From Blepharisma japonicum (lineage: Eukaryota; Ciliophora; Heterotrichea; Heterotrichida; Blepharismidae), in contig CATKHK010000071.1 of NCBI GenBank assembly GCA_949751835.1, positions 180,204 to 244,203 on the forward strand: a DNA stretch of 64,000 bases. Reading direction: 5' to 3'. Positions 21,362 through 46,554 of this stretch are shown piece by piece. The notes under the pieces are model-generated. The model saw only the letters and a list, made by a program, of their open reading frames with translations. It made no database searches and was not told where the DNA came from. The translations under genes and the position numbers were made by a program. Numbering within the stretch: position 1 is the first letter of the stretch; every line of letters starts with the position of its first letter.

Positions 21362-23278
21362 TTAAGCATCGTTTATATTTATTTTTTTATCAATTTTTCT
21401 TTTCATTGCTTTTACTGCTCGGGAAATCTCCTTTTGATTTTTTAAAATTATTCTTATCAATTTTTCTTGCTTATTTTCTTCGTAGTTTTCTGTTTGTAGC
21501 CAAGAGGTGCTGAATTTAGATGGAGATCCTTCATTATTAATATCAATTGTGCTTTGTCTGAATTGTTTTTTTAGCTCCTCTTGATCGAACTCAGTATGCT
21601 CTATGTTTGCTAATAGTTCTCCGATTTTTATTTCGCGATTTGTTGATTTTGTGAGAAGATCGTTTTTCTTTTCAGGGTATCCTTCATTTAGCATGAGCAT
21701 AAATGCTTTTCTTGGCACAGCTAAAGCTTGTACAGGAATTTCTCCTGCTGCAACATAATCAATTGATACAGGAGCTTTTGTTATGCATGAATAGTCACCA
21801 ATAACAGTTCTTCCGTTTGAAAACTGAAGCAATACTTTTGGAGTACCATTAATAAAAGCTTCACAGTTAACCTTTCCTTTAGTAATAAACAGCACTTCAT
21901 GAGCTTTTGTGTTCTTTTGTAAAATGAGCTCTCCAGGCTTGAAAATTCTAGGCTGAAAATGAAAGGCTAAGTCATATTTAAAATTTCCTTGGCCTAGATA
22001 CTCTTTAAACCAAAAGAAAATGTCAGAATATAATCTGTTCACTATAGAATTAATAATTGATCTAGGAAGCCATTGCAGATATACGTGATCTGTAGCTATT
22101 AGATCTTCATATGTTTCTGCTTTCCAGTATTTTCCTGCAATATCTTTCAATCTGTTATTTTCTTTATAGTTAGCAAAATGCCCTACGATTTGAGCCCTAA
22201 GCTCTACTGGGATGTCTCCATGCTTTTGTTCCAAATTTTCAAGCCATTCATTTAGTTCCGCACTGTGGTCTGGCTCTGATAGAATTTCATTAAATTCAGA
22301 AACTGTACTGTTAAAAGTTGCCATAATAATAGAGTATGCTGCTATCCCAATAATAATCACTATTATCATAAATCCTTTTTCATATAAATTCACAGGCACA
22401 AGATCTCCAAATCCAATTGTTAGTAGAGTTGTGGAAATATAATACATCGTTCTCAGCAGCTTTTTGCTTTCTGAAAAATGTTGCAAGTAAACGTCGTCAA
22501 AATTGTGATCCCATTTCATGTACCAACCCCTAAATAAACAGGCTGTTGCATATATAAAAGTAAGCATAATAATAAGAAGCTGTGAGAGTCTTCACGTCAC
22601 ATCAAAGATAAACCGAATTAAGTTTAAGTCCTTTCCTTGCTGTGAAAGTTTTATTATCTTGAATAAAAAGCCCAAAAACCTGTACTGTAAGTTAAGAATT
22701 CGCCGAAATTTCAAAAATCTAAAAAGTCTAATCATATATTCAGTGTCTGGGTTAATAAACCTCCACGGTATCAAGCAAATCAAATCAACTAAAAATCAAG
22801 ATTTTAAATACCTTATCACTATAGACTTATGCGATATAATAAGGTTATCGTAATTATTTTTATAATCTGTGAAAAAGCAAAATATCAAATCAATGCCAAA
22901 AATACATTGCATAATTGTATCTCAAACTAAAGTACCTCCTTCAGGTGGGCCAAATGCTATAAAGTGCAAGCAGCTCCCAATTGCGTAAATAAGTAAAAAA
23001 TCAATAAATGTGCTAAAAATTACCTTTCATTTAGTATTGTAATGAATAATAAATCGAGGTTTCTTGAAGGAATCCCTTAGAATCTGCTGATTGATTATTC
23101 TCTCTATTCCCTTGATATAATTAAAATTTGGTTTTGTATCAGAAGAAAGGGAAAAAAGCTTATGGTGCTTATGTGGTTGAGTATTATACAGATTTCCCAT
23201 AAGAAGCTTTGCATGTTCAGAAAAATTTTCATACTGGTCTGTAGGCAGAGATTCTGCTGTTGCTAACCACCTTTTCAT
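21362..23278 (-). CDS. Voltage-gated-type K+ channel with C-terminal cNMP-binding-like domain (copy 1)
   Basis: A 638-aa six-transmembrane channel, ATG 23276-23278 to TAA, no intron, TGA as Trp at several positions. S1-S6 span about residues 85-330. The S4 region is MIRLFRFLKFRRIL, and the pore carries the K+ filter TTLLTIGFGD. After S6 there is a C-linker (about 350-425) and a CNBD-like fold (about 425-525; PRIFKPGELILQK, then GKVNCEAF). The phosphate-binding cassette is atypical: G-D replaces F-G-E, and the Arg that binds the cyclic phosphate is missing (APVSIDYVA), so ligand binding is doubtful, as in EAG/KCNH channels. It is a tandem paralog of the gene just upstream (23381-25414). Both share the N-terminal motif ESLPTD. 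Confidence 0.92.
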
Positions 23279-23380
23279 TTAAACTTATAAATTTTATTGA
23301 ATTCAGCCATAGCCAGCTCAAAAATTAATTTAATATGTATAAAAAATATAAAAACAATATTACAATTTTAAAGCTCGATA

Positions 23381-25414
23381 CTACTCGTCTTTAGTTTCAA
23401 CGATTCTTTTTGCAAACTCATCACTGGGAACAGATGTATGCGTCCGAGATAGATTTAACTTTTCTTTTTCCTCGAGATTTTTTACCTCCATGGCGCTTAA
23501 AAGCAATCTTTTTTTAGAAATATTTCGCTTGATAGTTCGAATTTTTCTTCTCAAGTCATGCTCGCACTTTTGTAACTTTTTCTTCATTTCAGCTTCAAAA
23601 TTGTCTTCATCACGAACTATTGGAGTAGTTTCAAAAAGTTCTGCTGCCATGCTTGACCTTCTTAAATCAATGTCTATAATTTCAGAGTTTTTAGTTACAA
23701 AATCACTTCCATTTCTTCGATTTAACTTTTTCTCCGCCCTAGCTATTGCAAGTTGTATTTTATTTTCTCTGTTTGTTGATTTAATAATCAACTCTTTTTT
23801 CTTGACAGGATATCCTTCGTTTAAAATTAATAAAAATGCTTTTTTAGGCACAGCAAAAGCTTGAACTATGCTTTTGCTTTTTACTACATAATCAACAGAT
23901 ACTGGGGCATTCATTAATATAGAAAAATCACCAACCACAGTTCTTCCTTTATTAAATTGCAATATCGTTTTATATTTACCATTTATTAAAGTTTCACATA
24001 TAACCTTTCCATTTAAAATAAAAAGTACTTCTTTGGCTTTTTCTCCTTTTTCATAAATTCTCTCTTCTGGCTCAAAGAATCTTGGCTGGAAATGAAAAAT
24101 CAAATCATATTTAAAATCTGAATTTCCAAAGTAGTTTTTAAACCAAAAGAATATATCTGTAAATAAAGAATTGAAAATATTTTTTATCAAAGATTTTGGT
24201 AAGCGTGATAAGTATTCATTGTCAATAGTAGCTATTTCATCATAGGTTTCAGCAGTCCAATATTTTCCAGATAAGTCCTTTAAACGATCATTTTCCCAAT
24301 AGTTAACAAAATGCTCAATTATTTTCGATCGAATCTCTTTCGGAATTTCTCCATGCTTTATTTCAATAGAATTCATCCAAGATTTCAAATCAGAATTTCA
24401 GTCTGGCTCAGAGAGCATAAAATTGAATTCTGAGACTGAGCTAATAAAAAGCCCCATTGCATATGAATAAAAGGCAATCCCAATTATAATCACAACTATC
24501 ATAAATGCTCTTTCATATAAGTTCACAGGTACATAATCACCAAATCCTAGAGTTGCTAGAGTTGTTGTTATAAAATAAAGTGTATGAAATAATCTATTTG
24601 AAGAAGTTGCTTCTTCATTAAAATAATGGTCTGCAAAGTTATGTGGAAAGAAGCTGCTATATCAATAGAATAAACAGCCTACCAAGTAAATAGAAAAGCA
24701 CATTATAATTAAATACCTCCAAAGGTTTCTAATGCAGCCTATTAGGAAGCGAGCTTTATTTAAATCTTTCACTATTTTTGAAATTTTCATAATTTTGAAG
24801 GCATCATTTAGCATATTATTAAATATTTTTATCACGCGCTCAATTCTGAAAAATCTTAAATTTCTGATTAAATATTCTAAATCAAACCAAATATAACGGA
24901 AAGGTATAAGACAGAGGATATCTCTAAAAAATCTAAATTTCAAATATCGCAAAATAATTTTTCTGTGTGAAACCACTCTTTCCCCGTTAGAGTCTTCGTA
25001 GTCAGTAAAAAATGCCAATATTAGATCTACGCCGAATATGCACTGCATTATTATATCAAGAGTTTCATATATATTTTCAGGTCTTCCAAATGCTAAATAA
25101 AATAAAGAGGTAATTAACGAATATCCAATCAAAAAATCAATAAAATTATTATAAAGCAGCTTTCACTTGGATTTATTACTGATTACTCAAGCAGATTTGC
25201 TCTTTTCTTTGTTTATTATATTGTATTTCAATGATTTATGAAAAAAATCATCAAGAATTGATTTTCTATAATGAGGGCTAGAAAAAAGTGTTTTTTGCTT
25301 CTTTATTTTAGCTGATTTATCATTATATAATTTCCCCATAATTAAACTGATATGTTCGTATTGACTTTCAATGTTATCTGTTGGCAAAGACTCACCGGTG
25401 ATAATCTGTTTCAT
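23381..25414 (-). CDS. Voltage-gated-type K+ channel with C-terminal cNMP-binding-like domain (copy 2)
   Basis: A 677-aa paralog of the gene at 21362-23278, about 100 bp upstream of it on the same strand. ATG 25412-25414 to TAG, no intron, TGA as Trp at several positions. S4 is LIRNLRFFRIERVIKIF. The K+ filter is TTTLATLGFGD. The C-linker and CNBD-like domain align with copy 1 almost without gaps through EGYP. The cassette again has G-D for G-E and no phosphate-binding Arg (NAPVSVDYV), so this loss predates the duplication. The C-terminal about 130 residues are charged and diverge from copy 1. Such channels set resting potential or shape repolarisation; which applies here is unknown. Confidence 0.92.
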
Positions 25415-25554
25415 GTGACAATTTTAAATAATTATTAATTTTATTAATATAGAAAAAAACATAACCATTTTTTCAAGTTTTTTGTAAAAGCATTATCTAT
25501 CTATTTAAAAATAAAACAAAATAAGCTATTCGAGTCATATAAATGAAAAACTTT

Positions 25555-28500
25555 TTATAAAGTATCTTCAGAAATGTCTTGATTTCCAGTTTGAAATTCA
25601 GAAGCAGCCGAATTTTCACCAGGATATTCAACTTCTGAAAACTGAGGTGTGATACTAACAGATCCTGTATCCTTTTCCCTCCTCTTTTTTGTCCAATTTC
25701 TTCAGCTTTTAAATACACTTCTCGCATATATCATTGCAAAGAATAAATTTGTTTTGCCTTTGCCTTTCAATTGGTTATTCTATATAATTTTTACTCTAAA
25801 TTCTGAATTGAACCCTGAGCTTATTTTTTCTCTTATTAATTGAAGCTTTTTAATAGTGCTGCTTTCTTCTTTTCTTATCAATTTCTGTGACTTTTTGTCT
25901 AAATGTTTAACTAAACCTACTGCATGTTTTCTTTTTAGGATTGCAAAAAGCATATCATTATAATATATATATCCTTCAGAATCTATATGAATATTCATAA
26001 TTGACAATAGCTTAATAATTTTCTCATTTGGAGTGCCCAATGGAACCCCTAAATCTTCTCCTAAAGAGTACATAAGCTCCACAAGAAACTTGTAATGAAT
26101 CCTTATTCCTTCACTTGCGACTGAATAAATTGCCCAAGCTTTTTTGAATTTCTTTACATCTTTGTTGAAAATGATTACCCCACTTTTTGCATCATTAGCA
26201 AAATCTTGGTAATCTTGCAAAATCACCATAACGAAAACGTTTAGCATAACAAAAGTGGTAGCAGCTATAAAAGTGCATCAGTATATGTAAGAAACTGTTT
26301 CTCCTGCTGAAGAATTCGCACAATCAAACATGGCATCAGGCCAGTTTTCGCCTGTTGAGTGTCTGAATAGCTTAACTAAAGCTTTATCGAAATTATGCAT
26401 GTTGCTATAATCATCGAACATAACTCCACTGTCAATAGAGTGATAAAGAAATACTCCGAGAATTGCATAAATAATATAAATTAACAGCAAAACTGATGAA
26501 ACATTAAGAATTGAAGGTATTGAATAGGAAACCAAAGTGATCAGCTCCTGAAGTGTTTTGAATTTCTTGACAAGTCTAATAATACGAGTCACCCTCAGGA
26601 CTCTTACTGTTCTAATGACTTGAGGAGCCCTGCTCAAAACTGAGCTCCCTGAAGAAATATAATAAGTCATGATTAAATCAATAATAGATGAAACTACAAC
26701 AAAAAAATCAAATCTGTTTCATCTATCTCAAAAATAAGTCACTCCCATTCCAGTAATCTTTATGATTCCTTCGCCTATAAATACATAGGTGAACGCAGAA
26801 TTTAAATTTTCCAGAACATTTGTTCATGTTGCAGAAGCCTGTTCATAGTAAAGGCACATCACAATGAAGTTAAATATAATACAAGTGCTCACAAATGCTT
26901 CAAAAGTCCAGTGATCTTGCATTGTGAAAAAAAATAATTGAAATCTATTCTCAGGCTTACTTGATTTTTCTATTTGAGGTTTTGATTGGGAAATTAAGGT
27001 TTGAAGCTCGACTCAGACCATCTGCTCTTTAGAAAGGATAAGTGAAGCTAAGGAGCTCTCATTTTTTTTAGCTTCAGTGAATTTTTCAAAGATGACACCA
27101 GCTAAAAGGTTGATAAAAAAGATTGATGATATCGTTAAGTGAATTATGAAATATATAGCAGCACTTGGGAAGTACCCTTGAATAGGGGCATGGCCATCTT
27201 TATAGCCACTTATTGTGAGGAACATGTAATCAGGCCAATTTTCTTGGGTAGTCAATATAAATGAAGCAATCATAGCATCTGGGACACTATCAAAATTGAA
27301 ATTTGAGTTCACCCAATCATATCCTAAAGATTGGCAATCGTCTATATTATCAATATTTGTGTTAGAGCATTTATACAATTTCCCACCAAATAACGATACC
27401 CCTAAAATAGCAAAAATAAGCCAAACAAGTAGAATTACAATTGCTACATTAAAAACACCTATAAGGGACTCTATCAAGGCATTAATCATAATTTTCATTT
27501 GAATATTATGGCTTATAATTCTCAGAGGTCTCAAAATTCTAAGCAGTCTTAAAACTTTAATTACAGGAACATTTACATTTGTTAAAGCAAGATCAATAAT
27601 TGATAGTGTTACTATCATACAATCCAATTGACACCAAGAATCTCTAAGATAAGACCCTTTCGATATCAGAAAGCCCATTGAAATACTTTTTATGACACCT
27701 TCTATACCAAAAAGTATTGTAAAAGCTATATCTAAATAATAGGAAACTACAACTCTTGTATCATCTTCAGAGTAGTCAAGTAAATAAGTATCCCAAATTA
27801 ATTTTAATGTGCTAGCCATAATAACCAATAGTATAAATCCTTCGAATTTTTGGCTGCTGGTCAGTTTGTATGCAGCTTTCCTTAAACAGTTATTTTTTGA
27901 AAATACAAAGAAACTTCGTTCACATTCAATCCCTTGATATAAAGTTTTTGTTTCTTTTTTAGTGCTTATTGTGTGCAAATCCTCCAAGGAAACATTGTCT
28001 TCACTGTCACTGTCGCTATCACTATCACCATCACTTAAATCTTCAAGCATTTTTAACCTTTTTTCTTTTTTTTTTCTTATTCTGGCTGTTATAGAAAAGA
28101 TGCTACTTCTCCTTTCACTTTTTGTTGAAATTGAATCCGTGGCAGTCCAAGTATCATCATCTTCGTCTTCATTTGAGAACATATCAAGTACTAAAGCCAA
28201 AAATATGTTCAATAAAATCTCATTTCCAAGTACTAATCACCAAGCTGGAAACAGTACTCCTGAATATCCATATGTAGATCTCATGCATACATATTGTATA
28301 TAATTTCAGCTCTCAGCAGTCATTATCTGAAAAATTGAAATAAAAGAAAAATAAAAGTCATTGAAATTATATTTATACTTAGACTCAGTAAAATCAAGTT
28401 TTCCTGCAAATAGTTGTAGACCAATGATTGTAAAGATCAAGAGGAAAAGTAGAACAAAAATCATTAAGTAAAAAAAATTTGCAAGATTTTTTGTTAATTT

Positions 28501-31494
28501 GCTGATTATGTGAGTCATGGTCTGAAGATATCTGAAAAGCCTGACAACTCTGATAACTCGGAAAATTCTTAAAATTCGAATCGCCCATAAAGCTTTAAAC
28601 GAAGTTCCTGAGTCTGCTAAAAATAGATATTCAATTAAGCCTAAAACAGTTATAACACCATCAAAGATATTCATTTTTTCTCTACAATAATTAGCAAACC
28701 CAAGACCTAAGACTTTTATTCCCATTTCTGCGACAAAAATCATTGTAAAAACAGAATTCATTGTAGTTAGAGTTGATTCAGTAGATGAATCAATACCATA
28801 ATGGTTTATTGATAAAACTATTGTATTAGCAATCACACATAAAATCATCACATAACTAAAACATTTGCTTTTTGAAATCAGTTTTAATGGATATGAAATC
28901 TTTTGTCATGTTCCTAAAGCTCCTCGACCTCATACTCTATATTTCATATTGTCAATTTTTTCTTTATATTCATTTGCTTTTATCCCATCATTTGAATTTA
29001 TGTCATATCCTGACCAGTCTCCAATGACATGATTTGTTATTTTATCCTTTTCTTTCACATTTTTTATTATTAAAGGCACTTCAATTGAAGTCATGTAAAA
29101 TGCTATTTTGGCTCTGAATTTTGTGCATAAAAAATTAAAAACCTCAGGCTTATCGCCAATGTTTCTATATCTGTCCAGAATATCTAAAACATTGTTATCT
29201 CACTTTTGAGTCAGACTTTCTAAATCATTTAATACACTGCCTCCTCTATAGACAAATGTATACTTTTTTGATGAACATTGCTCAATTTGATTTGTTTCTC
29301 CATTCAAAACATCATAAATAGAATCTGATGAAATCTCGTTGTTTTCCTCAATGTGAGGTTTAACTTTTGTCATATCAGAAACATTTTTAAGTTTTAGCGC
29401 TAAATCTTTTCGGATTTTTATATTTTTTACCTTCGTTAGCATTGGTGTTAATGTTTTGGTTGAAGTGATTTTTGATAGGGTTCTTTTGGATGTGTTTTGG
29501 AATAAAGATGTCATTCTTGATAGCAAACTCCCTTTGCGTGTTATTGAATCTTTAGGCTCATCACTTACAGAATGCGAATTCATCATACTCAGAGTTAATT
29601 CTGCTGGCTTTCCTGGGTTTAGCAAATCGTCTTCAAAACTATCGGCTGAGAATTTATTTGGGTATTTTAAATTTCTTTTTTCACTTAGAGGCTGAGAAGT
29701 AGTAAAGTTGTGAGCTTCAAATGCAATTTTCGGAGAAGGTAAGCTGTCATTTTGGTCTTTAACAGCAGCATCATTATTATTGATATTATTTTCAAGAGAA
29801 TTCATATCTTGAAAATCAGAAAAAGCATAATCCATAATTTTAGGCTTTGCTTGTTGAAAAATTCCACTCATTTTGAGTTTTTTTGAATTTAGGATTATAA
29901 TTTGATCCCCAGATCTTTTATTTCTATCTAAATGTGGAATTTCTTCTTTTTCTTCTCGATTGCCTTGAATTAAACTATTTTCTGGGTCGGAATCAGATTT
30001 ATCCATTTTTGATGGATTCCCTTCTTTTTTTATTTCATCATTTTCTCCAATTAAATTTTCCAGAATTGAAGAGTCGGCCGATTCTTCATCCTCTATTACT
30101 TCTTTCGATTTTTGTTTCAAGCGAGCTTTTTCCATTTCCTTTGAAAAATTTGAAAATAAAATGACTTCCATTAGATTCAAGACTAAAAAAGTCCCAATGA
30201 AAAGTAATACAATAGAAAAAATTATTGCCATTGGCTGATTAAAGGACTTTTCTTCAATCCTCATTATATCGCTTCAGCTTTCTTGGCTGATCGAAGTAAA
30301 GCATTGCAAAAATCCCATCATGACATTATCGAAATTAATCATTCCGTATTGAGGATTATTTAACGTATTTACACATTCATAGCCTTGGCCACAGTCCATA
30401 TTTCCACATGAAGTCATACTGCTTTGTGGATATTGCATAGCTCCTGATTCTAGGTTCATGCACTGGTAAGTAAACATCCCACTAAATAATTGGTTTCCGA
30501 TGATGCCAAAAATCAATAGAACAAAAAACAGTATAATAAAAATATTTGATAGTGGCAAAATTGACCCCAAAAGTGCTAAAACAAGCACACGCAGACCCTT
30601 AAGAGAAGATATGCTTTTCAAAGGTCTGAGAATTCTGAGTGATCTAAGAGCACTTAAATTAACCCCAGAATTTGCATAGTTCGCAGCTCATGCAGTCACT
30701 AGAATAGTAAAATCAAGGGCATTCCAAGGATCTCTAATATACGAAGTTTTCTTAAAAATAAATCCATAGGCCAAAACTTTTAGGGCAAATTCTACAGTAT
30801 AAACATATAAAAAAATCTGATCCATGATTGCTAGATTTTGAGGTTGGGAACTAGCATTTGGGTCTTCAATTGACAAAACTATCGCATTTGCAATAATGAA
30901 GCACAAAATAATAGCATCAAAAGCTGGGTTACTCACAATATGATAGCAAAACTGAGAAATTCCACATTTTATCCTTAATAAGGCCTTTCTTAATTCCAGA
31001 AGAGGATAATTATCATTTAATTCTTCAATAATTTCAAATTGAGTAAACTCCCTGATCTTTAAATAACCCTTGAGTGCCTCTGAGCTATCAAAGCTGAGCG
31101 TCGATTGATTGTCTTCATAAGAAGACCTAAGACTTTTGAGTGTATTTCCAGCTGAGTATTTTTTATTGCTATTATCCATGTCCAATTGCAGTAGAAAGCT
31201 AGGATTCATAGCAGTTGTGTGCAAATTATTTTTTCCAATAAAGGAGCTTCGGAAAGATTCATTTAGACTCGATTCAAAGATCATTGGAGAGTAATTTTGA
31301 TCAAATGATTTATTTTGGCCGTTTAGGGTAAAAGCATTACTTTCATAATCTGGTTGCTCTTCAATGTTGTTGGATTTATAGTGGTTTCTTCTACTTTTTG
31401 CATCAGTGCATTCGCTTGCGTTTGCTCAGTCATCAGAAATGCTCTCATATCCTAGTCTAGAATTATAATTGAGCCAATACGATTTTTCTTGCAT
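25555..31494 (-). CDS. Four-domain voltage-gated cation channel, paralog A
   Basis: A 1,974-aa alpha subunit of the Cav/Nav/NALCN superfamily, two exons. ATG 31492-31494; stop TAA 25555-25557. Four repeats of S1-S6 are present, each with an Arg-rich S4 (for example AIRILRIFRVIRVVRLFRY in domain II and RTVRVLRVTRIIRLVKKF in domain IV). The filter-bearing pore loops read SQESW, TAESW, TQENW and TGENW, so the ring is E-E-E-E, which in known channels means Ca2+ selectivity. The Trp of loops I and II are TGA codons. The I-II linker is long and Ser-rich. The C-terminal tail has VSITPQFSEVEYPGENS, shared with B and C. The 15-nt intron at 25780-25794 follows residue 1900. Confidence 0.94.
25780..25794 (-). 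other. 15-nt intron in channel A
   Basis: GTAAAAATTATATAG, with an A six bases from the 3' end, phase 0. C has a 16-nt intron, and B an exonised copy, at the same alignment position. Confidence 0.9.
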
Positions 31495-31929
31495 TTTTGT
31501 CCAAAATTATTGATAGGCAATATTTCGAATTTATACTTATTGCTTTAGAACACTTAGAAAAGCTCATATCATATAGATGAAATAAATGCATTACTTAGAA
31601 ATTTAACTTTTAAGCAGTTTCTAAAATAAAATAAAATTAAATAAAATTGATAAAAAAAATTGTATATATCAGAATTTATTTATAAAAATTAAAATATAAT
31701 AATTGAGAAATGGGGTTGTTGCTATTAATTAATTTTTCATGAAAATAAGTATCAGAAATGTTTCGCTTATTAAATAACGATTTAGTCATTTAGAAAGTCA
31801 CTTAATTTTTAGATAAGTGCAAAGCAAATAGATTTTAAATATTTATTATTTTATCCATGTCAAGTTTTTAATTTAAAAAAAAGAACGTTTAATAAACCTA
31901 ATATTAATTAAGCATTAATAGTTCTATAA
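31495..31929. other. Spacer between channel genes B and A
   Basis: 435 bp of AT-rich DNA between the stop of B and the start of A on the minus strand. It should hold the promoter of A. No repeat or leftover coding sequence that would mark the duplication boundary is visible. Confidence 0.5.
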
Positions 31930-34900
31930 TTATGTATTTATTTGTTCTTCAGATACAACTGAGTTTTCACCTGGAAACTCAATCTCAGAAAATTGTGGTG
32001 TCACACTAATTGACCCAGGATGTTTATTTTTTTTCTTTTTAACCCAATTTTCTCAGCTTTTGAATACTGTTTTTGCATATATCATTGCCATAATTAAATT
32101 GTTTTTTTGCCTGTCATTTTTCTGATTCTTCTGTGTAAATTTTCCCTTATTTCTTGTAGAATCTATTTTTTGTTTTAATTTTTGCAGCTTTTTGGACGTT
32201 TTTAGCTCTTCTTTTTTTAATAGCTTTTGAGAATCAATATCAACATCACTTTTGAGTGATTTTGAATATTTTCTTTTCATTACAGCAAATAGCATATCAT
32301 TATAATATACAAAACCCTCAAAATCTATATCAATTTCCATAATCGATAGTAGCTTAATGGCTTTTCCATAGGTATATTGATCGGAAACGCCTAAGCCATT
32401 CCCAAGCGCATACATAAAATCGACTAAATATTTATAGTGTATTTTCTTTCCGCGGGTTGATTCTGTATATGTTGCTCAGACTTTTTTGAATTTTTTTACA
32501 TCCTTATTAAACATAATAACACCACTTTGAGCGTCGTTTGTAAAATCTTCATAATCTTGAAGAATCACCATAACAAATAAATTCAGCATTATGAATGTGG
32601 TTAAAGAAATAAAAGATATTCAATATATGTAAGATACTGCCTTTCCTGCTGAAGATTTTGCACAATCATTCATTGCCGTCGCTCAACCTTCTCCAGTAGC
32701 ATGGATGAAAAGCTTTAGAAGTGCTTTATCGAAATTGTTCATATTATTGTAAGAATCGAAATTTCTTCCATTATCTATTGAGTGAAATAAATACACACCC
32801 AGAATAGCATAAATAACAAAAATTAATAGTAAAATAGCTGATACATTAAGGATAGATGGAATTGAATAGGAGAGTAGAGTAATCAAATCTTGCATAGTCT
32901 TGAATTTTTTTATAAGTCGAATAATTTTTGTGACTCGTAGCACCCTTAGTGTTCTTACCAATTGTGGTACCGTTGCCAATACTGAACCTTCTTGAGGAAT
33001 CATGCCAGAGAGGAAAAAATCCAAAATAGAAACAATAACTACAAAAAAATCAAAGCGATTTCACTTATCTTTAAAATAGCATCTACCAAGCCCAATTATT
33101 TTGATAGCCGCTTCAGAGATAAAAATACAGGTAAAGCTCAAGTTAAAAAACTCAAGAAATTGCTGATATTTTTGTGGTGCTTGATTATAATACAAACACA
33201 TTAATATAAAATTGAGGATAATACATGTAATTATAAATGTCTCAAAAATTCAATTGCTTTGGAATTTATAAAAAATTAGTCGGATTTTATTTTGCGGTTT
33301 ATTTATGGTATCAATTTCAGGCTTTGACTGAGTGATTAAAGATTGAATCTCTACCCATATCATTTGCTCTTTTGTTAGAAGAAGCGATCCTAATGAGCTC
33401 TCGTGTTTTTTAGCTTCTATAAACTTCTCAAAGACTACACCAATTAGTAAATTTATAAAAAAGATTGAGCACATGCACATATGAATAATAAAATAATAAG
33501 CTGCATTAGGGTTCTTGTTGGGATAAAGCGAATGGCCAGGCTTAGTTGTTGCGCAAGTTAAATACATGAAATCTGACCAATCATCTTCAGATGTCAGTAT
33601 AAATGATGCAACCATAGCTTCTAAAACGTTGTCAAAATTGAAAAAATATAAATCCCACGTGTAGCCCATCTCTTCACATTTTTCCTGGGTAAACATTCAA
33701 GAAAAAGAACAAAAATAAAGTTTTCCAGAGAATAGAGATACGCCTAAAATTGAAAAAATTAATCAAAGAATTAGAATTGCGCTTGCTACATTGAGAACTC
33801 CTATTAAAGACTCAATTAAGGCATTTATCATAATTTTCATTTGGATATTGTGTGTGATTATTCGTAAAGGCCGCAAGATTCTTAGCAGTCTTAAGACTTT
33901 AATCATTGGTCAGGAAAAATCTGTTAAAGACAAGTCTGTTATTGATAATATAACGATGGCAAAGTCCAATTGGAATCAGTGATTCCTTAAATATGACCCT
34001 TTAGAAACAACAAATCCCATGGATATAGATTTTATAGCCATTTCAACTCCAAAAATGCAAGTAAAAGCAATATCCAAATTATTTGATATGACAATATTGA
34101 TATTGTTCGAGTCCAAATCAAATAAATAAGTATCTCATATTAGCTTTATTGTGCTTAATGCTATCACGATCAAAGCACAGGCTTCAAATGCATGATTATT
34201 TGACAAACGATAACAAAACTTTCTCAGCTTATTTTCTTTAGAAAAAATTCAAAAGCTTCTCTTGCACTCAATGTCAGCAAAATAAATCATGCTTTTTCTA
34301 TTTATGCTATCATTTTTCAAGTCTTCTAATGACTTACCAGCATCATTTTCATTTTCTTGAAAAATCATTTCAGCACTGGGCTGTATCTTTTTTGAATTTT
34401 TGTGTTTTTGAGAAGTGATAGATGTTTTGTGAGATAGTCCAAGTCCAACTGAATAAGTTTCTGAGCTAGAATCTTCATCTTCATTAGAAAAAATATCAAG
34501 GGTCAAAGCTAAAGCAATGCTTAGTAAAATTTCATGTCCAACGATAAGCCAAACTACTGGAAAAAGAACACCGCTATATCCATAGTCAGTTCTCATTGAG
34601 TAAAGCTCTTGATAATTTCAATTAGCCCCTGTCATGATTTGGAAAATTGAAAGAAATGAAAAATAAAGATCATTGAAGTTATAGCCAATATGTGCTTCAT
34701 AAAATTCCATTTTTCCTGCAAATAGCTGAACTCCAAGTATTGTAAAAATAATCAAAAAGAGACCTTGAAAAATAATGATATACAAAAACATAGATACATT
34801 GTGCGATAATTTATCCATGATGTGATTCATAGTTTCCATGTATCTGAATAATTTTACGACTCTTGTTACCCTAAAAATTCTAAACACTCGAATTGCTCAT

Positions 34901-37824
34901 ATAGCACTAAATGTAGACTTTGAGCCGGATATATAGATAAACTCAATAAAGGCTAAGATAGAAATTGCACCATCAAACAAATTCATTTTTTCACGGCAAT
35001 ATCCTACTATCCCCATTGCTAGAATTTTTATTGCCATTTCTACAATAAAGATTATTGTAAACACTGAATTTATTTCAGAGAGTGTGTTGTCAAGATTTTC
35101 ATCAATTCCATAATAGTTTATCGACAATACTGTAGTGTTAAATATAATACAAATAATCATAAAATAAATGAAAAATTTACTTTTTATAAATACCAATAAA
35201 GGATATTTAAATTTTTCTCAACTTCCCATAAATCCTGGTGTCCAAATCATAAATGTCATGCTATCAATTTTTTCTTTGTATTCATTAGCTTTAGAATGCT
35301 TATCAATGTCATATCCTGATCAGTCACCTATAACATTATTTTTTTCAAAATCATTTTGCTTTAGAAATTTTATAATTTTTGGAACGTCAATCGTAATTTT
35401 AAAAAATGCTTTACTTTTTGAGTGCTTTTTACACAAATATTTGAAAATATCAGAAAAATCGCCTTTGTGTTTGTACTTATTCAAAACATTTGCTACCTCA
35501 TTTTCTCATCTCTGTGTAAGTTTTTCTATGTTTGTATAAATACTTTGGCTCTCTCTATATACAAATTTATAAACTGGAAGTTTTGGCAGTTTTTCAAATT
35601 CATTTTCAATTATAAAATCTTGCAGAACATCTTCTATAGAGCTTGAGCTAATTTCATTATTTTCTTCTATAAAAGCTTTAACTTTTGTGTTTTCAGAAAG
35701 TTTTTTTAGTTTTCCAATTAAATCTTTCTGAATTTTTAAATTTTTTATTCTTGTAACTACTTGAGGAAGCTTATCAGATGAACATTTGGTACCAGAGCGT
35801 TTAACATTAGAGCTAAATATAGTGGTTATTCTTGAAATTAATGATGGCTTTTTAGTCAATTTTTCTTTAGAATCATGATTTTGATCAAGATTAATATCTT
35901 TGCCAGAAATAATATTGTTTTTGATACGTGGTTTAATTAAGAGATCTTCTTCAATATTTAATGATAGCGAGCTTAGATCTACCGAATCGAAACTTTTAAT
36001 CTCTTGATTTGGAAGAATAAAATCCTGCTTTTGTCTCAGTTTGCTCATGCTCAAAGTGATTGATCCAAGGCTATCAGTTATCTCATTCTTATTGAAATTT
36101 AAACTGCTTTCACAGAAGTTTTCTGAAGAATCAATCAATTCGTACATCTCGCTTGTATTTCTATTCCTTGAAGCAATTTCAACTTTTTTAAAAATATCAT
36201 GCATCTTAAAACCCAACTTATTTAACTTTACAAATTTTTCATCAGGATTGTCAGAATTTTTTGATTTAAGTTCAAGCTCGTGATTTTCATATTGCAGTGA
36301 GGAATTATCAATACTCGATATATTTTTATCGTATTTCTCTGAAATTTCAGCATCTTCAATCGAGTCACTTTGAGAAATTAAATAGTTTAGCAATGATAAA
36401 TTTGCCGATTCATCTTCTTTTACATCTTTTAATTTATGCTTTAACCTCACTTTTTCCATTTCTTTTGAAAAATTTGAAAATAAAATCACTTCCATCATAT
36501 TCAACAGCAAAAAATTCCCAAAAAACATCAAAGATATACAATAGAGAATTGCAGCGAATTGATTAAGGGTTCTTTCCCCATATTCCATAATTTCAGCTCA
36601 GCCTTCTTTATTTATGATTATAAAGCTTTGTAGGACTCCAATTAAAACGTTATCAAAGTTTATAAAGCCGAATTCAGGATTTACTAGAGTTTGAACACAA
36701 ACATTTCCTGATGGGCATGCCATTGTCCCACACACTGTATAGCCGTCTAAAAAACTTTCACTATATTGGCCTGTTTCTAAATTCATGCATTGATATTTGA
36801 ATAGTCCTCCGAATAACTGATATCCTATTATTGCATATAATAAAAGAACAAAAAATAAGATTATTAGGATGTTCGCTAAAGGCACAATAGAGCCTAAAAG
36901 TGCTAGCACAAGCACTTTTAAACCTTTTAGAGATGAGATACTTTTTAATGGCCTGAGAACTCTTAAGCTTCGCAGAGCATTAAAATTTAAACCTTGATTT
37001 GAATAAAATCTCGAAATATAAACAGTAAATAAAATAAAAAAATCTAACACATTTCATGCATCTCTAAGATATGCATTTTTACAAAAAATAAACCCAAATG
37101 CAATAACTTTTAATGCAAATTCTGCTGTGTAAACATAAAAAAAAATATCTTCAAGAATTTCAAGGGGCTGAGATTGAGTAGATTTGTTTGGGTCTTCAAG
37201 CGCCAACACTACAGTATTCATAAAAATAAAACATAAAATTAAGATATCAAATATAGGATTTGAGACAATTTTATTGCAAAGCTGAACAAATGCACATCTT
37301 ATGCGGAGCATAGCTTTTCGCAATTCAAGCATTGGGAAATTGTCAAATTTTTCGTTAATCTCTTCGAATTCTGTTCACTCACGTATTCTTATATATCCTC
37401 TTGCTAGTTCTGAATCATCAAAATCAATGGTTGGTTTGCGTAATAGCAGTGATTTTACTGTTTGAAATTCTGGGACATTTGTATTAAGTTTTGAATGGTA
37501 ATATCCATTCTCTATGCGGTCATGATAAAAAGTAGATAAGGCATTTGCTTTAGGATAGTCTTCATCTCAATTTATTGTCTGCAAAGAATTATTTAAAGAT
37601 GTGTCTGATATCAAGCGCTGAGATTTAACTTTGCTAGTAATTGTATTCTTTTTTGAAGAAATAGAAAAATTAAATCTTTCTGCAGACTTACTAAAAAGGC
37701 TCTGACTCGGAATATTTGATTGAGAAGGGTTAGATTTTCTTGTTTTGCTTAGATATTTTTCAGAAAAACTTTCTTGATTCTCCGTATTAACCCAAGAAAA
37801 TGATTTAGTAGGCTTCTCCAACAT
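31930..37824 (-). CDS. Four-domain voltage-gated cation channel, paralog B (E-A-D-E filter)
   Basis: A 1,964-aa alpha subunit in one continuous frame, ATG 37822-37824 to TAA 31930-31932. Domain order matches A and C, and all four S4 helices keep their Arg/Lys ladder. The pore loops differ: domain I NKEGW (Glu407), domain II TGANW (Ala1067, codon 34624-34626), domain III SEDDW (Asp1414), domain IV TGEGW (Glu1712). The ring is thus E-A-D-E, not E-E-E-E. Near the C-terminus, residues 1894-1898 are encoded by 15 nt that correspond to the intron of A and C. The reading frame is intact over 5.9 kb, so it is not a pseudogene. Expected to pass cations with changed selectivity; this is inference. Confidence 0.93.
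32131..32145 (-). other. Exonised intron in channel B
   Basis: On the minus strand it reads GGAAAATTTACACAG: 15 nt, AG at the end, and an A six bases from the 3' end, but GG in place of the GT. It is read as five in-frame codons (G-K-F-T-Q). Removing them aligns the flanks with A and C without gaps. Confidence 0.75.
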
Positions 37825-38142: not shown

Positions 38143-40206
38143 ATGTCCCTTAAAGGAGAAGTGAAAATTGCCGTACATCTTGAACGCTTTAGAAATATTG
38201 AATTATTTAAGCAAGGATTATATCAGCTTCGTTTCAGACTATATTACACATTAGATTCAGAAGTAATTTACAAATAGACTTTTTATGCAAATCCAACAGA
38301 AGTATGAAGCCTAAACAAATCTGCAAGAAATTGGCTTAAAAAAGACCCTTCTAGCATTGTTTCAGCATATATTGATGACGAAATTCATGCTTATAACACT
38401 CGCTCTTTTCTAATCAGATATCAAGAAGAAAATTTCTTATTGAATGAGCTCTGTGTTTTTGTCTGCTCAGTCCCAATTAAAACAAATGTAGTTTTGACTC
38501 TTGAGGCAGAGCTTCTGTATAGTAATTTAGAAAAAAAGAATAAGAAAGGAGAATCTGACGAACTCAGAGTTCTGGATGCAAATCCAGTCATGAAGCAAGT
38601 TGCAGCAAAAACTTATATAATTAGCAATCTTTGAAATCCTATACACCAGTACTTACCTATAAGCTTTGATCCTACGTATTTTTGTTCAATTGATGCAATT
38701 ATTCACGTTTTGCCATTCTCCTATGACATCGGGCACAATGGAGTTATGAAAATTCAAAATGAATGCTTTGATCAATTAGATAAGGTTGAGAAAAAGGTTG
38801 CCGATCTATCATATTATAGCCTTTTAGACCCTTTAAGACTTAGCTATAACACTATCAGGGTATTAGCACTTTTAATCCAAAATTCAAATCTGGTCAAATC
38901 TGAAGATATCCAAAAATTTATTCCAAGAGAACTTAAAAATCCAACTTTTAATAGAGAAGATTTGAAAGTCAGCTTTTATGATTTAATAGAAACTGATGAT
39001 CCGGAAGAAATTTCTCAGAGAATTATGGAAGAGATCCAAATTGTGAGCTATGAAATCGAAAAATCGTTTATGATGCTAATACAACTTATAGAGATTTCTA
39101 ATACAACTCCAATTGATATCCTAAAGGGTTTTTTTGAGCAGCAAATTAATAAGCACTTTCAAGAGTATATAATAATTGAAAATAAAACCCCAAGCATGTA
39201 TCGAAATTACAGAGAATATGCTCAGAAAGCTGAAGAAATCCGCAGGTCTCCTTATTATGAAAATTTAGAAAGATTAGAAATTCATTCAGAAGATCTATAC
39301 CATGAAAATGATTGCCATCCTATATTTTTTTTAGAAAATTATAAAGCAGTAGAGACCAATTTGCTTCAATGGCAAGCACCTATTAAAATGGATCCTCATG
39401 ACCTGACAGTCTGCAAAATAAATGACATTCATGTATTAGTCCTTGTCCATGGATACAAAGGTTGTTCAGCTGATATGCATCTTATAAAAGGCTATATCAA
39501 CCAGATTTACCCTGATATTCACATTTTATCATCTAAGACTAACGAATACCAATCAGATTCCTTAATTGGCTTGCAAGGATACAACTTGGCTTCTGAAATA
39601 ATCCAATACATCTCCATGAATCGTATTCCTCTCCATCGATTAAAGCTTTCCTTTCTTGGACATTCTTTAGGCGGACTTATAGTTAGATCAGCTCTTCCTC
39701 ACTTAACCCGTCTAAAAGAAAACTTATATTCCCTTATAACCTTATCATCTCCTCATTTAGGTATTGGCATGTCATGGAACCCCCTGCTTGAGCTAGGAAA
39801 GTGATTTATAAAAAATTACCAAGGAAGCGATTCTTTTTCACAGATGACTTTCCAAGATTCAGCTAATTTAAAGGACAGCTATATTTATGAATTAAGTCAA
39901 CATCAAGGTATTGAATGATTTGAACACATTGTGTTGTTTAGCTGTCGAGATGATCCTTACGTTAACGAAGAGTCTGCAAGAATTCAGATGAACTCGCATA
40001 TGAAATATTCAGCAGGATATGAAGAAATGATAAATAATATTTGGGGAAAAGTTAATATGGAAAAAATCACAAGAATTGATGTGCACTTCAAGCATGAAGA
40101 TTTGAGGAAGCAGTGCTTGTGCTGTGGGAATAGACATATTGATTTTATCGACAACTCCTGCTTCATCAAGATGATTTGCTACAGCTTCCCTATATTGTTT
40201 ACATAG
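38143..40206 (+). CDS. FAM135-type protein with serine-hydrolase (DUF676) domain
   Basis: A 682-aa protein, two exons joined over a 15-nt intron at 38263-38277. The start, MSLKGEVKIAVHLERF followed by RNIELFKQGLYQLR, is the typical FAM135 N-terminus, and the first TGA (in EVWSLN) falls at a Trp expected there. The C-terminal half is an alpha/beta hydrolase: VLVHGYKGCSADM at about 422-434, the nucleophile elbow LGHSLGG with Ser503, and NRHIDFIDN, which probably carries the catalytic His. FAM135 and DUF676 proteins are putative lipases or esterases; the substrate is unknown. It is shorter than the animal proteins, mainly in the linker. It sits alone on the + strand between channels B and C and converges with C, 47 bp apart. 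Confidence 0.9.
38263..38277 (+). other. 15-nt intron
   Basis: GTAATTTACAAATAG, with an A six bases from the 3' end, phase 0, in the N-terminal domain of the FAM135-type gene. Its TAG closes the unspliced frame. Confidence 0.9.
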
Positions 40207-40253: not shown

Positions 40254-43200
40254 CTAGACTATGATATCTTCAATTTCTGATGCGGCTAAGGAATTATTTC
40301 CGGGGAATTCTATTTCTGTAAATCTTGGTGTAATACTCACAGACCCTGTTGGGCTTGCATTTTCCCTTCTCTTTTTCGTCCAATTTCTCCAGCTTTTAAA
40401 TACACTTTTCGCATTAATCATAGCAAAAAACAAGTTGGTTTTTCCTTTACCATTCATTTGCGAACTCTATGTAAATTTTTACCTTTAATTCTGAATAGAA
40501 ATTTGTTGATATTTTATCTCTTAGCTCCTGCAATTTTCTGGAAGTGTTGTGCTCTTCTTTTCTAATTAATTTTTGCGACTTTGCGTCCAGATTTTTGGCT
40601 AAATCTTTTGCGTGCTTACGCTTCATGATGGAAAAAAGCATATCATTGTAATAAATATATCCATCTGCATCTATATGTAAATCCATAATAGATAGCAATT
40701 TAATAACTTTATCATGTGATGTTCCTTGAGCTACTCCTAATTCGGGCCCTAGCTCAAACATAAGCTCAACCAAGAATTTATAATGAATTCTCATCCCTAA
40801 GCTTTGCATTGCGTACACTCCTCATGCTTTTTTGAATTTTTTCACATCTTTATTGAAAATGATGACACCACTTTGAGCATCGTTTGCGAAATCTTCATAG
40901 TCTTGCAAAATAACCATTACAAACACATTTAGCATAATAAAGGTTGTTGCTGATATAAAGGTGCATCAGTATATGTATGAAATTGTTTTTCCGACTGAAG
41001 AGTGCATACAGTCTCATAGTGCGTTAGGCCAGTTTTCCCCTGTTGAGTGCCTGAATAGTTTTACTATAGCTTTATCAAAATTATGCATGTTGTTATAATC
41101 ATCAAAGCATTCCCCACTATCAATAGAATGATATAGATAAGCTCCAAGTACAGCATAAATGACAAAAATCAAGAGTAAGACAGCTGAGACATTTAGAATT
41201 GAAGGTATTGAGTATGATACTAATGTAATAAGCTCTTGCAAAGTTTTAAATTTCTTTACTAATCGTATTACCCTTGTCACCCTTAGAACTCTGATTGTTC
41301 TGATAAGTTGTGGGGCTGTGTTAATCAAGTTATTCCCTGATGTAATTATGTAGGTAAAAATTAAATCTATTATAGAAGAAACAACTACAAAAAAGTCAAA
41401 ACGATTTCAGCTGTTGTAAAAGTATAAAGAGCCCATTCCAGTAATCTTAATTGCACCTTCAGCAATAAAAATATATGTAAAGGCTGTATTAAAGTTTTCT
41501 AAAACACTCGTGTATTCCGCTGATGCCTGATCATAATAGAGACACATTAATATAAAATTTAGACCTATGCAGATGCTTATAAAAGTTCCAAAAATTCAGT
41601 GGTCTTGTAGATCATAAAAAAATTTTTGGAATATATTTTCAGGTTTATTTGATTTTTCTATCTGAGGTTTTGACTGAGCAATCAGAGTTTGAATTTCTAC
41701 CCAAACCATTTGCTCTTTAGATAAAATAAGGGCAGCTAGCGAGCTTTCATTCTTTTTGGCTTCAGCAAATTTTTCGAACATGACACCAATTAACAGATTG
41801 ATAAAAAAAATTGAGGATAATGACATATGAACAATAAAATAAGTAGCTGCACTAGGATAATAATTAGAGATAGGTGCATATCCTTCTTTGTATGCTGCAC
41901 ATGTTTGATACATTCAATCAGGTCATCCTTCTTGTGTGGTTAATATAAAGGAGTCAACAATTCCAGTTGGAACATCATCAAAATTAAAATCAATAACTGT
42001 TCATGTATATCCTAACTTTTCACATTGAACTTGGTTATCGATATTTGAGTTGGAGCAATTATATAGTTTCCCCCCAAATAATGATACGCCTAAAATCGAA
42101 AAAATGAGTCAAAGGAGGAGAATAGCAGCTGAGACATTTACCACTGAAATTAATGACTCTATTAAAGCATTAATCATAATTTTCATTTGCAAATTGTGGC
42201 TGATGATTCTTAGTGGTCTAAGAATTCTAAGAAGCCTCAGCACTTTGATAGCAGGAATATTCACATTTGTAAGAGCTTGGTCAATAACTGAAAGAATTAC
42301 AATAATGAAATCCAGTTGGCATCAGCTATCGCGTAGATATGATCCTTTTGAAATCAAAAAACCCATCGATATTGTTTTTATGATCATTTCACAACCAAAT
42401 ACTACAGTAAATGCAAGATCAAAATAATTAGAAATAACAACTTCTATATTATCAGAAGATAGTTCCAATAAATAAGTGTCCCAAATTAATTTCAGAGTGC
42501 TCACAACAATTACCACTAAAACAACGCTTTCATATTTTGGACTACTTGTTATAACATAACAAAATCTCCTCAGCTTATTTTCTTTTGATAAAATGAAAAA
42601 ACTTCTTTCGCACTCAATTCCTTGAAACAAGACCTTTGCTTTCTTCATTTCACTTTGCCGCTTTAAATCTTCCAAAGTTTTTGTTCCTTCAGCATCTTCA
42701 TCAATTTCTTCGCTTTCGCTCTCATCACTTAAGTCTTCTAAGATTTTTAACCGCTGCTCTTTTCTTTTTTTGATCCTTGATGATATTGAAAAAATGCTGC
42801 CACGCCTGCTTTCGCTCGTTAATGATCCTGTCATGTCAACGCTATCTTCATCTTCTTCAGTTGAAAACATATCTAGAACTAAAGCTAGAAAGATGTTCAG
42901 CAAAATATAATTTCCAAGCATAATCCAAAAAGCTGGGAATAAAACTCCTGCATAGCCATAGCTTGATCTCATAGTTGTATACACTTGATTATTCCAGTTT
43001 TCTTCTGTCATTATTTGAAAAGTGGAGAGAAATGCAAAATAGAAAGTATCCCAGTTATACTCATTATGAGCTTCAGCATAATTCAGCTTTCCAGAATAAA
43101 GTTGCAAACCCAATATTGTAAAAATCAAGACGAAAAGGGAAAGGAATATCATCAAATAAAAAAAATTCATCGTGTTTTTTTGAAGTTTTTTCAAGATATG

Positions 43201-46179
43201 GGTCATTGTTTGGAGGTATCTAAAAAGCCGTAGAACTCTAACAACTCTGAAAATTCGTAAAATTCTGATTGCCCTGAGAGCTTGAAGAGAGGTCCCAGAC
43301 AAAAATAAAAACTCGCATAGTCCAACAATAGAAATTGCGCCATCAAATAAATTCATCGCCTCTCTGCAATACCCAAGAAACCCAAGAGCAATTATTTTAA
43401 TGCCCATTTCTGAAATAAAAACGAAGGTGAAAACTGTATTTATGGTTGTTAGTGACTGCTGTGTGGATGAATCAATTCCATAGTGATTAATAGAAAGTGC
43501 GATAGTATTCGCAATCACGCAAAGAATCATAATATAGCTAAACCATCTATGTTTGACAAGCACTTTCAAAGGATATGCAAGCTTTTCCCAATTTCCAAGC
43601 GGACCATTATTCCATAGCCTAAAATTCATGCTATCCATTTTTTCTTTGTACTCATGAGTCTTTATTCCTTCATTAGTATTTACATCATATCCAGATCAAT
43701 CTCCAATCACATTTTTTGTCACCTTATCTTGCTCCTTAATAGTTTGAACAATGTTCGGGACTTCAATTGAAGTCATATAAAATGCCTTTTTTATTTTGTA
43801 TTTGCCGCATAAAAATCGAAAAATCTCATTTCTGTCACCTTTTTCACTATATTTATCAAGGACATCAGAGACTTTATTGTCTCATACTTGTGTGAGTTTT
43901 TCTAAATTAGATAAAACATCTCTCCCACCTCTATATGTAAATTTATATTCGAATAGCGGGATGTTATTTATTTCAGTATTAGATAAAATTTCACTCGAGA
44001 GGATGTCATACTCGGAAGTTGATGTAACTTCATGTAACTCATTGATAATAAATTTCACCTTAGTTGGTCCTGAATCATCTTTCATTTTTTTATGTAAATC
44101 TTTCCTTATTTTTAAATTCTTCACTCTACCCAACAAAATAGGTGAAATTGTTTTGTCACCAGTACTTTTAGAAGTTTGCTCTCTTTTTACAGGACTTTTG
44201 AACAAAGATGTCACTCTTGACAGCAATGAAGGTTTCTTTGATAAAACCCCACCTTTAGTTTCAATTGTTGCAGCGGGTGAGTTTCCCATGCTGGGAAATA
44301 CTGGAGGGCTGTTTGCAGCTCTTAAAAATGCCTCATCATTGGCATGGTCAATTGAATCATTTTGCTTTAGAGTTTTGCTTTCAGCAGTATGCTTTAAATT
44401 CAGATTATTTGATTTATCTCATTTTGGGGTCGGCAGGCTTTCCTCTAAATCCTTTACTGATATTTCTTCATTATTTTGCAATTTTATGCTGCTATCAACA
44501 GAATTAAATGCTTCAAAAAAATCGTCACCTTTATTTTTGAAGTTTAATCTTGCTTGCTTGTAAATTCCATGCATTTTTAGCTTTTTATTTTGACTGAACA
44601 AAATTTTTTCGTCTTTAAATAATGATCGGCTTGTTTCTTGCTGGTCTTTATAAATATCATCTCTATTTAAATCAATTTCTGATTCAGATTTATCGAGATT
44701 CATACGATCGTTGATATCCTGCTCAAAAGAATCATGGTCTTGGACATAATTTCCTAATAAAGATGATCCCACCGATTCTTCTTCGCAGACTTCTTTGTTT
44801 TTTTGCTGGACCCTTAAATTATCCATTTCTTTTGAAAAATTTGAATACAAAACGACTTCCATGATATTTAGTAGCAAATAAGTACCAATGAACATTAGCG
44901 AGATTGAAAACATAATGGCGATAGGCTGGTTAAATGCTTTTTCCCCAATAATCATTATTTGTGTCCACCCTTCTTCACTGATAGAAGTATAGCATTGCAA
45001 AAGACCTATTAAAGCATTATCTCAGTTTATTTTCCCATATACTGGGTTGTTCAAACTTTTAACGCATTCATAGCCTGGCGGACAAGTTTTGCTTCCACAG
45101 ACCCAGTCATCACCAGGAGCCATTAAATACTTTCCAGTCTCAAGATTCATGCATTGGTATTTAAAAAGTCCTCCAAACAGTTGATTTCCAATGATTCCGT
45201 ATATAAGTAGTGTAAAAAACAATATCAGAATAATATTGGATAAAGGTACAATAGATTTCAGTAAAGCGACAATAAGCACTCTTAGCCCAGGCAGAGAAGA
45301 AATGCTTTTGAGTGGTCTGAGAATTCTTAATGAACGTAATGCATTTAATTTAAGACCTGTTGTAGCATAATATGAGGCCCATGCAGTGCTCACAATGACG
45401 GCATCCAGAACATTTCAAGGGTCTCTTAAATAAGCTCCTTTATTGAGTATGAGCCCGAGTGCTAAAATTTTTAATCCAGCTTCTATTGTATATACATATA
45501 AAAATATATAATCAAGAATTTGTAAATGTTCAGGTTGAGTGCTTGCATTCGGATCCTCAATAGATAAAACTACAGTATTTGCAAAAATAAAGCACAAAAT
45601 AATCGCATCAAATACCGGATTCGATACTATGTGCAGACAGAACTGAGAAATCCCTGAAATTATTCGTAAAACTGCTTTTCTGAGCTCAAGCATAGGGTAA
45701 TCATCGTCTTTCCCTTCAATGACTTCAAAGGGCGTCCATTCCCTAATTTTTATATATTCTTCCAGCAGCTCATCGTCACCATAATTCGCCAATTGTTGGT
45801 TTATTGACACTGTTTTTGAGCTTAAAAACGAATTTGCAGCTGAATAAATTTTTTTGTTATTTGAATTTTCCTCTTCAATCCGTTGAAGAAACGAAGCATG
45901 CAGTGCAGTTACTTGCGGTTCAATACTAAGACGAGTTGGAGATCGAAGCGTTTCATTATAACTTGATTCCATTATGAGAGCGTGAAAAGGAGTTGTAGAA
46001 GGTCTGCTAGGGTAGCCTGATGAATAGGTATTCTTACGATTTAGCTCTTCATTGTGAATATTATTCGTCTTTTTCTTTCGAGTTGACTTTCTTCTATAGG
46101 TCTTCTCATACAAATCTTCAGAAATTTCTTCACCGTCAAGTCCAGATATGTGAGAATAGGGATTAATTGATCTTTCCAT
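40254..46179 (-). CDS. Four-domain voltage-gated cation channel, paralog C
   Basis: A 1,969-aa alpha subunit, ATG 46177-46179, stop TAG 40254-40256, two exons. Four S1-S6 repeats. S4 segments include NALRSLRILRPLKSIS (I), AIRILRIFRVVRVLRLFRY (II), KVLRLLRILRPLRIISHN (III) and RTIRVLRVTRVIRLVKKF (IV). The pore loops are SEEGW, TEENW, TQEGW and TGENW, an E-E-E-E ring as in Ca2+ channels. Between domains I and II lies a long, acidic, Ser-rich linker. A 16-nt intron (40467-40482) follows residue 1899; it is the only one not 15 nt long. C resembles A more than B does in pore and tail, and is separated from B by the oppositely oriented FAM135-type gene. No auxiliary subunit gene is seen nearby. Confidence 0.94.
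40467..40482 (-). other. 16-nt intron in channel C
   Basis: GTAAAAATTTACATAG. Its A is again six bases from the 3' end, so the extra base lies on the 5' side. Removing 16 nt shifts the frame into the conserved C-terminal tail (KGKTNLFFAMINAKSVFKSW), which proves the length. Confidence 0.92.
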
Positions 46180-46554
46180 TATAAGAGAAAGATAATTAAA
46201 AATTTTAATAAGGTTGAGCAGCTCATTTTTAGCAAGAAGAAAAACAGTTCTAGAGAGGATTCATTAATATTTGTGCTCTTGATAAAATATTATATAGAAG
46301 TGTTTAATTTTGAAGGTTATGCCTTCAGTAAGTAATTTAGAATATGAATATGGAAAAACCGTCCATCAGAGTAAACTTATTAAATTATTTTATTGCTATT
46401 ATAGTATTGACAATTAAAGCTATTGGATTTTAAATTATTTTAGAAATCAAAAGAACTGAACATCGTTAATATAGAAAACTGGAGAATTACTGGAAAAGAA
46501 ACACCAAGTATGGTCAATAAAATTTATTAATTAGTCATTTGCGTACATTTTTTA
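46180..46554. other. Intergenic region upstream of channel C
   Basis: 375 bp between the MND1 stop and the start of channel C, both on the minus strand. AT-rich, with no recognisable element; it must contain the promoter of C. Confidence 0.5.

Follow-up and report, generated by a model that had tools for sequence, protein, structure and literature searches.

The window analysed here, a 64,000-nucleotide stretch of Blepharisma japonicum DNA, carries three neighbouring four-domain channel genes, designated A, B and C, all of which lie on the minus strand and have frames that are open only when TGA is read as Trp. The genes and the parts of channel B, the latter with their profile matches on C71, are located as follows.

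25780..31506, minus strand: open frame of channel A, filter ring E-E-E-E
31930..37824, minus strand: channel B gene, four Ion_trans stretches (E 6.2e-183)
37822-37824, minus strand: start ATG of channel B, in the frame with TGA as Trp
36451..37257, minus strand: domain I (Ion_trans) of channel B, profile match C71:216654-217460
34468..35178, minus strand: domain II (Ion_trans) of channel B, profile match C71:214671-215381
33400..34194, minus strand: domain III (Ion_trans) of channel B, profile match C71:213603-214397
32530..33252, minus strand: domain IV (Ion_trans) of channel B, profile match C71:212733-213455
31930-31932, minus strand: stop TAA of channel B, in the frame with TGA as Trp
40447..46263, minus strand: open frame of channel C, filter ring E-E-E-E

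With TGA read as Trp, the frame of channel B runs from ATG to TAA over 1964 sense codons followed by the stop, the same length of open frame (1,964 codons) as given in a preliminary description of this DNA. The code is supported by the orthologue from Blepharisma stoltei, since all TGA codons of channel B (21/21) stand opposite Trp in that protein. The Trp two residues past Ala1067, the ring residue of loop II, is encoded by a TGA codon (34618-34620).

The four Ion_trans stretches of channel B were recovered in a Pfam search with 605.5 bits, and the top match among solved structures, by sequence, was the R-type alpha-1E (CaV2.3) chain (E 3.3e-148). NCBIfam yielded no match, and neither GPHH (PF16905) nor IQ (PF08763) was matched in B, A or C at E <= 1, in a search whose filters drop most matches above about 0.1. 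S4 charges had been described as kept in channel B, and both translation and alignment bear this out: charge repeats are present in 4/4 domains in the translation, the alignment showing only the start of S4-III, and R is replaced by K at 991 and 1633 in the alignment. Also present in the window are two adjoining single-domain channels that carry cyclic-nucleotide-binding domains, next to channel A (21362-25423, minus strand), and a gene for a FAM135-like serine esterase, which separates B from C (38278-40206, plus strand).

The selectivity filter of channel B and its relatives in the genome

Loops I to IV of channel B read NKEGW, TGANW, SEDDW and TGEGW, giving the filter ring E407-A1067-D1414-E1712. 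The preliminary description had placed an Ala in loop II at 34624-34626 within an E-A-D-E ring, and its residue numbering and coordinates were recovered at each of the four codons.

36604..36606, minus strand: Glu407 (GAA), loop I ring residue of channel B; the preceding residue is Lys (Gln in B. stoltei)
34624..34626, minus strand: Ala1067 (GCT), loop II ring residue; Glu in 12/12 related Blepharisma sequences
34513..34521, minus strand: Ser1102 and Ala1104 in S6 of domain II; Asn and Phe in the 12 others, common to the B. stoltei orthologue
33580..33588, minus strand: Glu1413-Asp1414-Asp1415, loop III acidic triplet; same in the B. stoltei orthologue
33583-33585, minus strand: Asp1414 (GAT), loop III ring residue
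32689..32691, minus strand: Glu1712 (GAA), loop IV ring residue

The corresponding loops are QESW, TAESW, QENW and TGENW in channel A and EEGW, TEENW, QEGW and TGENW in channel C, so that the loop II sequences and E-E-E-E rings earlier attributed to A and C were read the same. Loops II and III match A and C in length, and therefore Ala1067 and Asp1414 are not alignment slips; the same equality of length between B and its close paralogues excluded a slip as their source. Ala1067 aligns to the loop-II Glu of the R-type alpha-1E (CaV2.3) chain.

An Ion_trans profile search of the genome (45.2 Mb, 224 contigs) led to the extraction of at least 11 four-domain channels. Seven of the 10 with four readable loops have E-E-E-E (A, C, C16D, C16E, C16F, C95 and C51), the others being B with E-A-D-E, C26 with Q-E-E-E, and C6 with a short uncharged loop II; C159 is cut at a contig end and has Glu in each of its three visible loops. 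Identity of the E-E-E-E paralogues to channel B is about 54%. Three of the four-domain channels form a second tandem (C16:128711-146584, minus strand). Within it, C16D is the closest to B, and C16E shares 73% identity with C, which suggests the duplication of an older channel cluster.

Relative to C16D, loop II of channel B is acid-free (G-A-N versus D-E-N) and loop III is acidic throughout (E-D-D versus Q-E-S); loop III is Q-E-x in 6/7 close paralogues and R-E-A in C26. This gain of loop III acids (S-E-D-D-W) was absent from the preliminary description, as was the equality of filter charge in B and A. Summed from HFS-1 to HFS+1, the charge is -4 in B, A and C26, -5 in C16D and the B. stoltei orthologue of B, and -6 to -7 in C, C16E, C16F and C95, a spread that weakens compensation by exact filter charge. 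Glu1413 occupies the HFS-1 position and Asp1415 the HFS+1 position, while A, C, C16D and C16E have an acidic HFS+1 residue in none of their loops. Channels A and C had been presented as the known Ca2+-channel type: their E-E-E-E rings agree with this, but they have no acidic HFS+1 "beacon" in any loop. The contrast between a known Ca2+-channel pair and a changed B is consequently less clean, since the beacon Asp is missing from A and C and B has one.

Among the other departures, C26 (C26:436526-442177, minus strand) has TEERV in loop II, with Arg after Glu and Val replacing the filter Trp; the S4 of its domain I has a gap of three residues. Loop II of C6 (C6:161803-165993, minus strand) is TGNW, one residue short and without carboxylate, a form common to its B. 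stoltei orthologue P0216 (91% identity); loop II of animal NaV is likewise one residue short. Rings of Q-S-E-G or Q-S-D-G, together with Tyr instead of Trp in loop II, occur in three unnamed proteins, P0131, P0132 and P0133. A tree was built from 91 sequences, six of an initial 97 having been left out because their loops were missing or doubtful; in it, B and C16D grouped with a support of 0.999 inside an E-E-E-E group. C26 branched close to the base of the Blepharisma clade that includes B, with a support of 0.474 for its exact place, and C6 and the Q-S-E-G proteins fell elsewhere, P0131-P0133 forming a separate lineage. A quick alignment of 258 sequences, which is search-biased, largely animal and no census, and whose rows were not checked singly, contained 152 E-E-E-E rings, 57 E-E-D-D rings and 2 E-A-D-E rings, those of B and its orthologue only. 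Glu fills the domain II position in 242 of these 258 sequences; the remainder have Asp (6), Ser (3), Ala (2), Arg (1), Asn (1) or a gap (3), where the Arg and one gap may be alignment slips.

Channel B carries the C-terminal motif TPQFSEIEFPGENS (window 31960-32001, minus strand), and similar motifs end C16E, C95 and C26. The open-frame ends of A, C, C16D and C16F have no such motif, and the reading frames of these four may continue past a small intron.

Conservation and rate of change

Among the matches listed (best 120 of 3543), the closest named relatives of channel B were B. stoltei proteins, and P0004 was 90% identical to it across the whole query. The loops of P0004 read NQEGW, TGANW, SEDDW and TGEGW, and within the filter loops II, III and IV are identical to those of channel B. 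The preliminary description had asked whether E-A-D-E is kept in orthologues or whether these all have E-E-E-E; in the one B. stoltei orthologue compared, P0004, the ring is E-A-D-E. A Lys at HFS-1 of loop I could be taken for a NaV-like functional lysine, which was excluded by the Gln at this place in the orthologue. For A and C26, no B. stoltei orthologue was found among the matches listed (best 120 of 3543) or in a second search, which listed only P0004 and P0005 from B. stoltei and from which the relatives P0006-P0009, recovered in the first search, were missing.

Identity between channel B and its B. stoltei orthologue was 89.7% (93.9% inside the four domains, 85.3% elsewhere), compared to 92.1-94.4% overall and 95.3-97.3% in the domains for the other between-species pairs (C16D, C71C, C16E, C16F and C95). 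At 28 filter positions, B differed between species at 2, both in loop I (2/7 there), and the five other pairs at 0. Channel B thus evolves slightly faster than its paralogues, yet under constraint, as identity to the orthologue is higher in the domains than outside.

Twelve related Blepharisma sequences, which agree in 385 columns, served as a reference set. Channel B departs at 27 of the 385, and 26 of these departures are common to the orthologue, among them both ring changes (1067 and 1414), where 12/12 others differ. Four of the 26 columns (1067, 1414, 1709 and 1715) are no more than three residues away from a ring position, and 1079, 1102 and 1104 are further domain II columns, the last two in S6. 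The number itself is not unusual, since the same count gave 23, 6, 5, 23 and 31 shared columns in five other pairs. None of these was at a ring position, although this control can score only ring column 1712, as variation is already present in columns 407 (C26), 1067 and 1414 (B); direct reading of the loops gives E-E-E-E in all five pairs. Changes near the filter are not unique to channel B, as C95 shows three of them in or close to it (1063, 1070 and 1410).

When eight paralogues were compared pairwise, the filter-to-core odds were 0.99-2.17 in the 7/7 pairs that include B and 0.00-0.94 in the 21/21 pairs without it, the filter of B thus differing from its relatives as strongly as the remaining core or more so. 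Uncorrected p < 0.05 was reached in 2/28 pairs, B-C16D (0.046, more change) and C-C16E (0.009, less change). This is a pattern, not proof, because the pairs share ancestry and only B-C16D falls below 0.05 in that direction.

Comparison with known channels

Channel B shares four Ion_trans domains and charged S4s with CaV1 and CaV2, but these have E-E-E-E or E-D-E-E rings, a loop-II beacon Asp where B has Asn, and, as high-voltage-activated channels, the GPHH and IQ domains that B lacks at the thresholds given above. The low-voltage-activated T-type CaV3 channels (E-E-D-D) share the loop III Asp but have Glu in loop II and Asp in loop IV, in place of the Ala and Glu of B. The zebrafish slow-muscle DHPR (Q-E-E-E) is, as described in PMC8184209, another natural loss of one ring carboxylate, in loop I and not loop II; paralogue C26 has the same Q-E-E-E. 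A neutral ring residue is found in NaV1 and NaV2 as well, but in domain IV, in rings of DEKA, DKEA or DEEA and with a loop II one residue shorter, whereas loop II is full length in B and short in paralogue C6. NALCN combines Arg/Lys-poor S4s with either a Lys in loop II or III or an E-E-E-E ring, and B resembles it in neither respect.

A survey of 277 four-domain channels reported E/E/E/E as dominant beside many other filters, including E/S/L/L, E/Q/D/E, N/E/D/N and N/D/D/N in Paramecium, with selectivities given there as unknown (PMC5824947). The Paramecium tetraurelia E/Q/D/E filter, compared by its published letters only, combines a neutral loop II with a loop III Asp as in B, with Gln in loop II versus Ala in B (PMC5824947). 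Odd ciliate filters have been published already, and the present case is strengthened by its conservation in an orthologue and by recurrent ring loss within one genome. A whole-word search of the open-licence literature for EADE, a format in which filters, often printed with slashes, may escape, found no paper, nor did an exact-phrase search for four-domain voltage-gated channels named together with Paramecium and Tetrahymena; in passages of one paper, Blepharisma appears only for mating chemoattraction (PMC7935092).

Ion selectivity of channel B

We propose that gene duplication within the Blepharisma lineage gave rise to channel B, which judged by its sequence is probably a working voltage-gated four-domain cation channel and may pass a different ion mix, a more guarded reading than the new selectivity put forward in the preliminary description. 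Its filter would have been rebuilt relative to the nearest paralogue C16D, presumably in the direction of losing loop II acids and adding loop III acids, to give the asymmetric E-A-D-E ring. The pore is most likely conducting, with looser Ca2+ binding and weaker Ca2+ block than an E-E-E-E pore, and in cells expected to express the gene depolarisation would admit a mixture of Ca2+ and monovalent ions. The probability of conduction with a weaker Ca2+ preference than that of an E-E-E-E pore is put at roughly 0.5.

This reading is considered the most likely because the matching CaV1 mutant, E705A, conducts well, the simulated Ca2+ conductance being 1.06 relative to wild type (PMC12146731, Table 1) and the Ba2+ conductance 1.36 and 1.49 in the experiments cited there (PMC12146731). 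Counted against it, these values were obtained for an animal channel whose loop II has a beacon Asp, which B does not have. In simulation, Ca2+ conductance was lowered to 0.37 by E1101A (loop-III Glu) and to 0.03 by D706A (the loop-II beacon Asp itself) (PMC12146731). According to earlier work cited in PMC8184209, any substitution at the EEEE locus moves Ca2+ affinity from micromolar to millimolar and costs the channel both Ca2+ selectivity and Ca2+ conductance; the affinity shift favours this reading, and the lost conductance counts against it. The two sources pull apart on conductance after ring loss.

The main rival, to which we give appreciable but clearly lower weight, is that channel B is still Ca2+-selective, the loop III acids replacing those of loop II so that total charge and a lopsided Ca2+ site are kept. 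The acids E1413, D1414 and D1415 may offset the lost Glu, and Ca2+ selectivity may be preserved because D1415 lies at HFS+1, where Asp accompanies Ca2+ selectivity (PMC10120453); moreover, CaV1 did not need the loop-II Glu to conduct Ca2+ in the simulation (PMC12146731). The charge of -4 (-5 in the orthologue) equals that of A and approaches that of C16D, and an acidic HFS+1 residue distinguishes B from A, C, C16D and C16E, but the charge also lies, with A and C26, at the low end of the paralogues. The side chain of E1413 at HFS-1, as we assume from animal structures, may moreover point off the pore. The beacon Asp tied to Ca2+ selectivity in four-domain channels sits in domain II or IV, not III (PMC10120453). 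That B might conduct no Ca2+ and act as a voltage sensor or regulatory subunit, like fish skeletal-muscle DHPRs, is considered unlikely: natural DHPRs without Ca2+ conduction are described, the zebrafish slow-muscle one having Q-E-E-E, and a rabbit clone given this change lost its inward Ca2+ current (PMC8184209), yet loss of the loop-II Glu spared conductance in CaV1 (PMC12146731). Similarly, Ser replaces the S6 Asn of domain II in B, but in C16F, whose ring is intact, the S6 Asn of domain I is likewise replaced by Ser.

A decaying duplicate, its ring changed under relaxed constraint, is quite improbable. The between-species identity of B is the lowest of six pairs and its two filter differences are consistent with decay, but 1964 codons without in-frame TAA or TAG, a predicted B. 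stoltei protein of full length and identical filter loops II to IV argue against it, in line with the preliminary description, which had viewed B as not decaying. We regard the chance that Ala1067 stems from a sequencing error, a chimeric assembly or a wrong genetic code as negligible, and no support for any of these was found. Read error and wrong code are excluded by the B. stoltei protein, in which the same residues occur, together with the TGA-Trp correspondence. Also against this rival, the genome has no second match above 70% DNA identity to 2001 bases of B (34000-36000).

If channel B conducts, as in the preferred reading, it would offer a natural loop-II Ala with a loop-III acid cluster in two species, with E-E-E-E paralogues alongside, and hence a direct test of whether Ca2+ selectivity is based on the four-Glu ring, the total filter charge or the HFS+1 site. 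More speculatively, and with considerable doubt, B and C6 could be Blepharisma's own voltage-gated sodium-permeable channels, which evolved from duplicated Ca2+ channels and lack the Lys of the animal ones: in B, acids of the filter would have moved from domain II to domain III, and in C6 loop II would have become one residue shorter, as in animal NaV. If true, B and C6 would provide separate Na+ and Ca2+ excitability in a ciliate. Both are candidates for testing in ciliates, since Na+-selective currents have been recorded in Paramecium (PMC8208649), yet the 2018 survey reported four-domain sodium-selective channels as identified only in Metazoa (PMC5824947).
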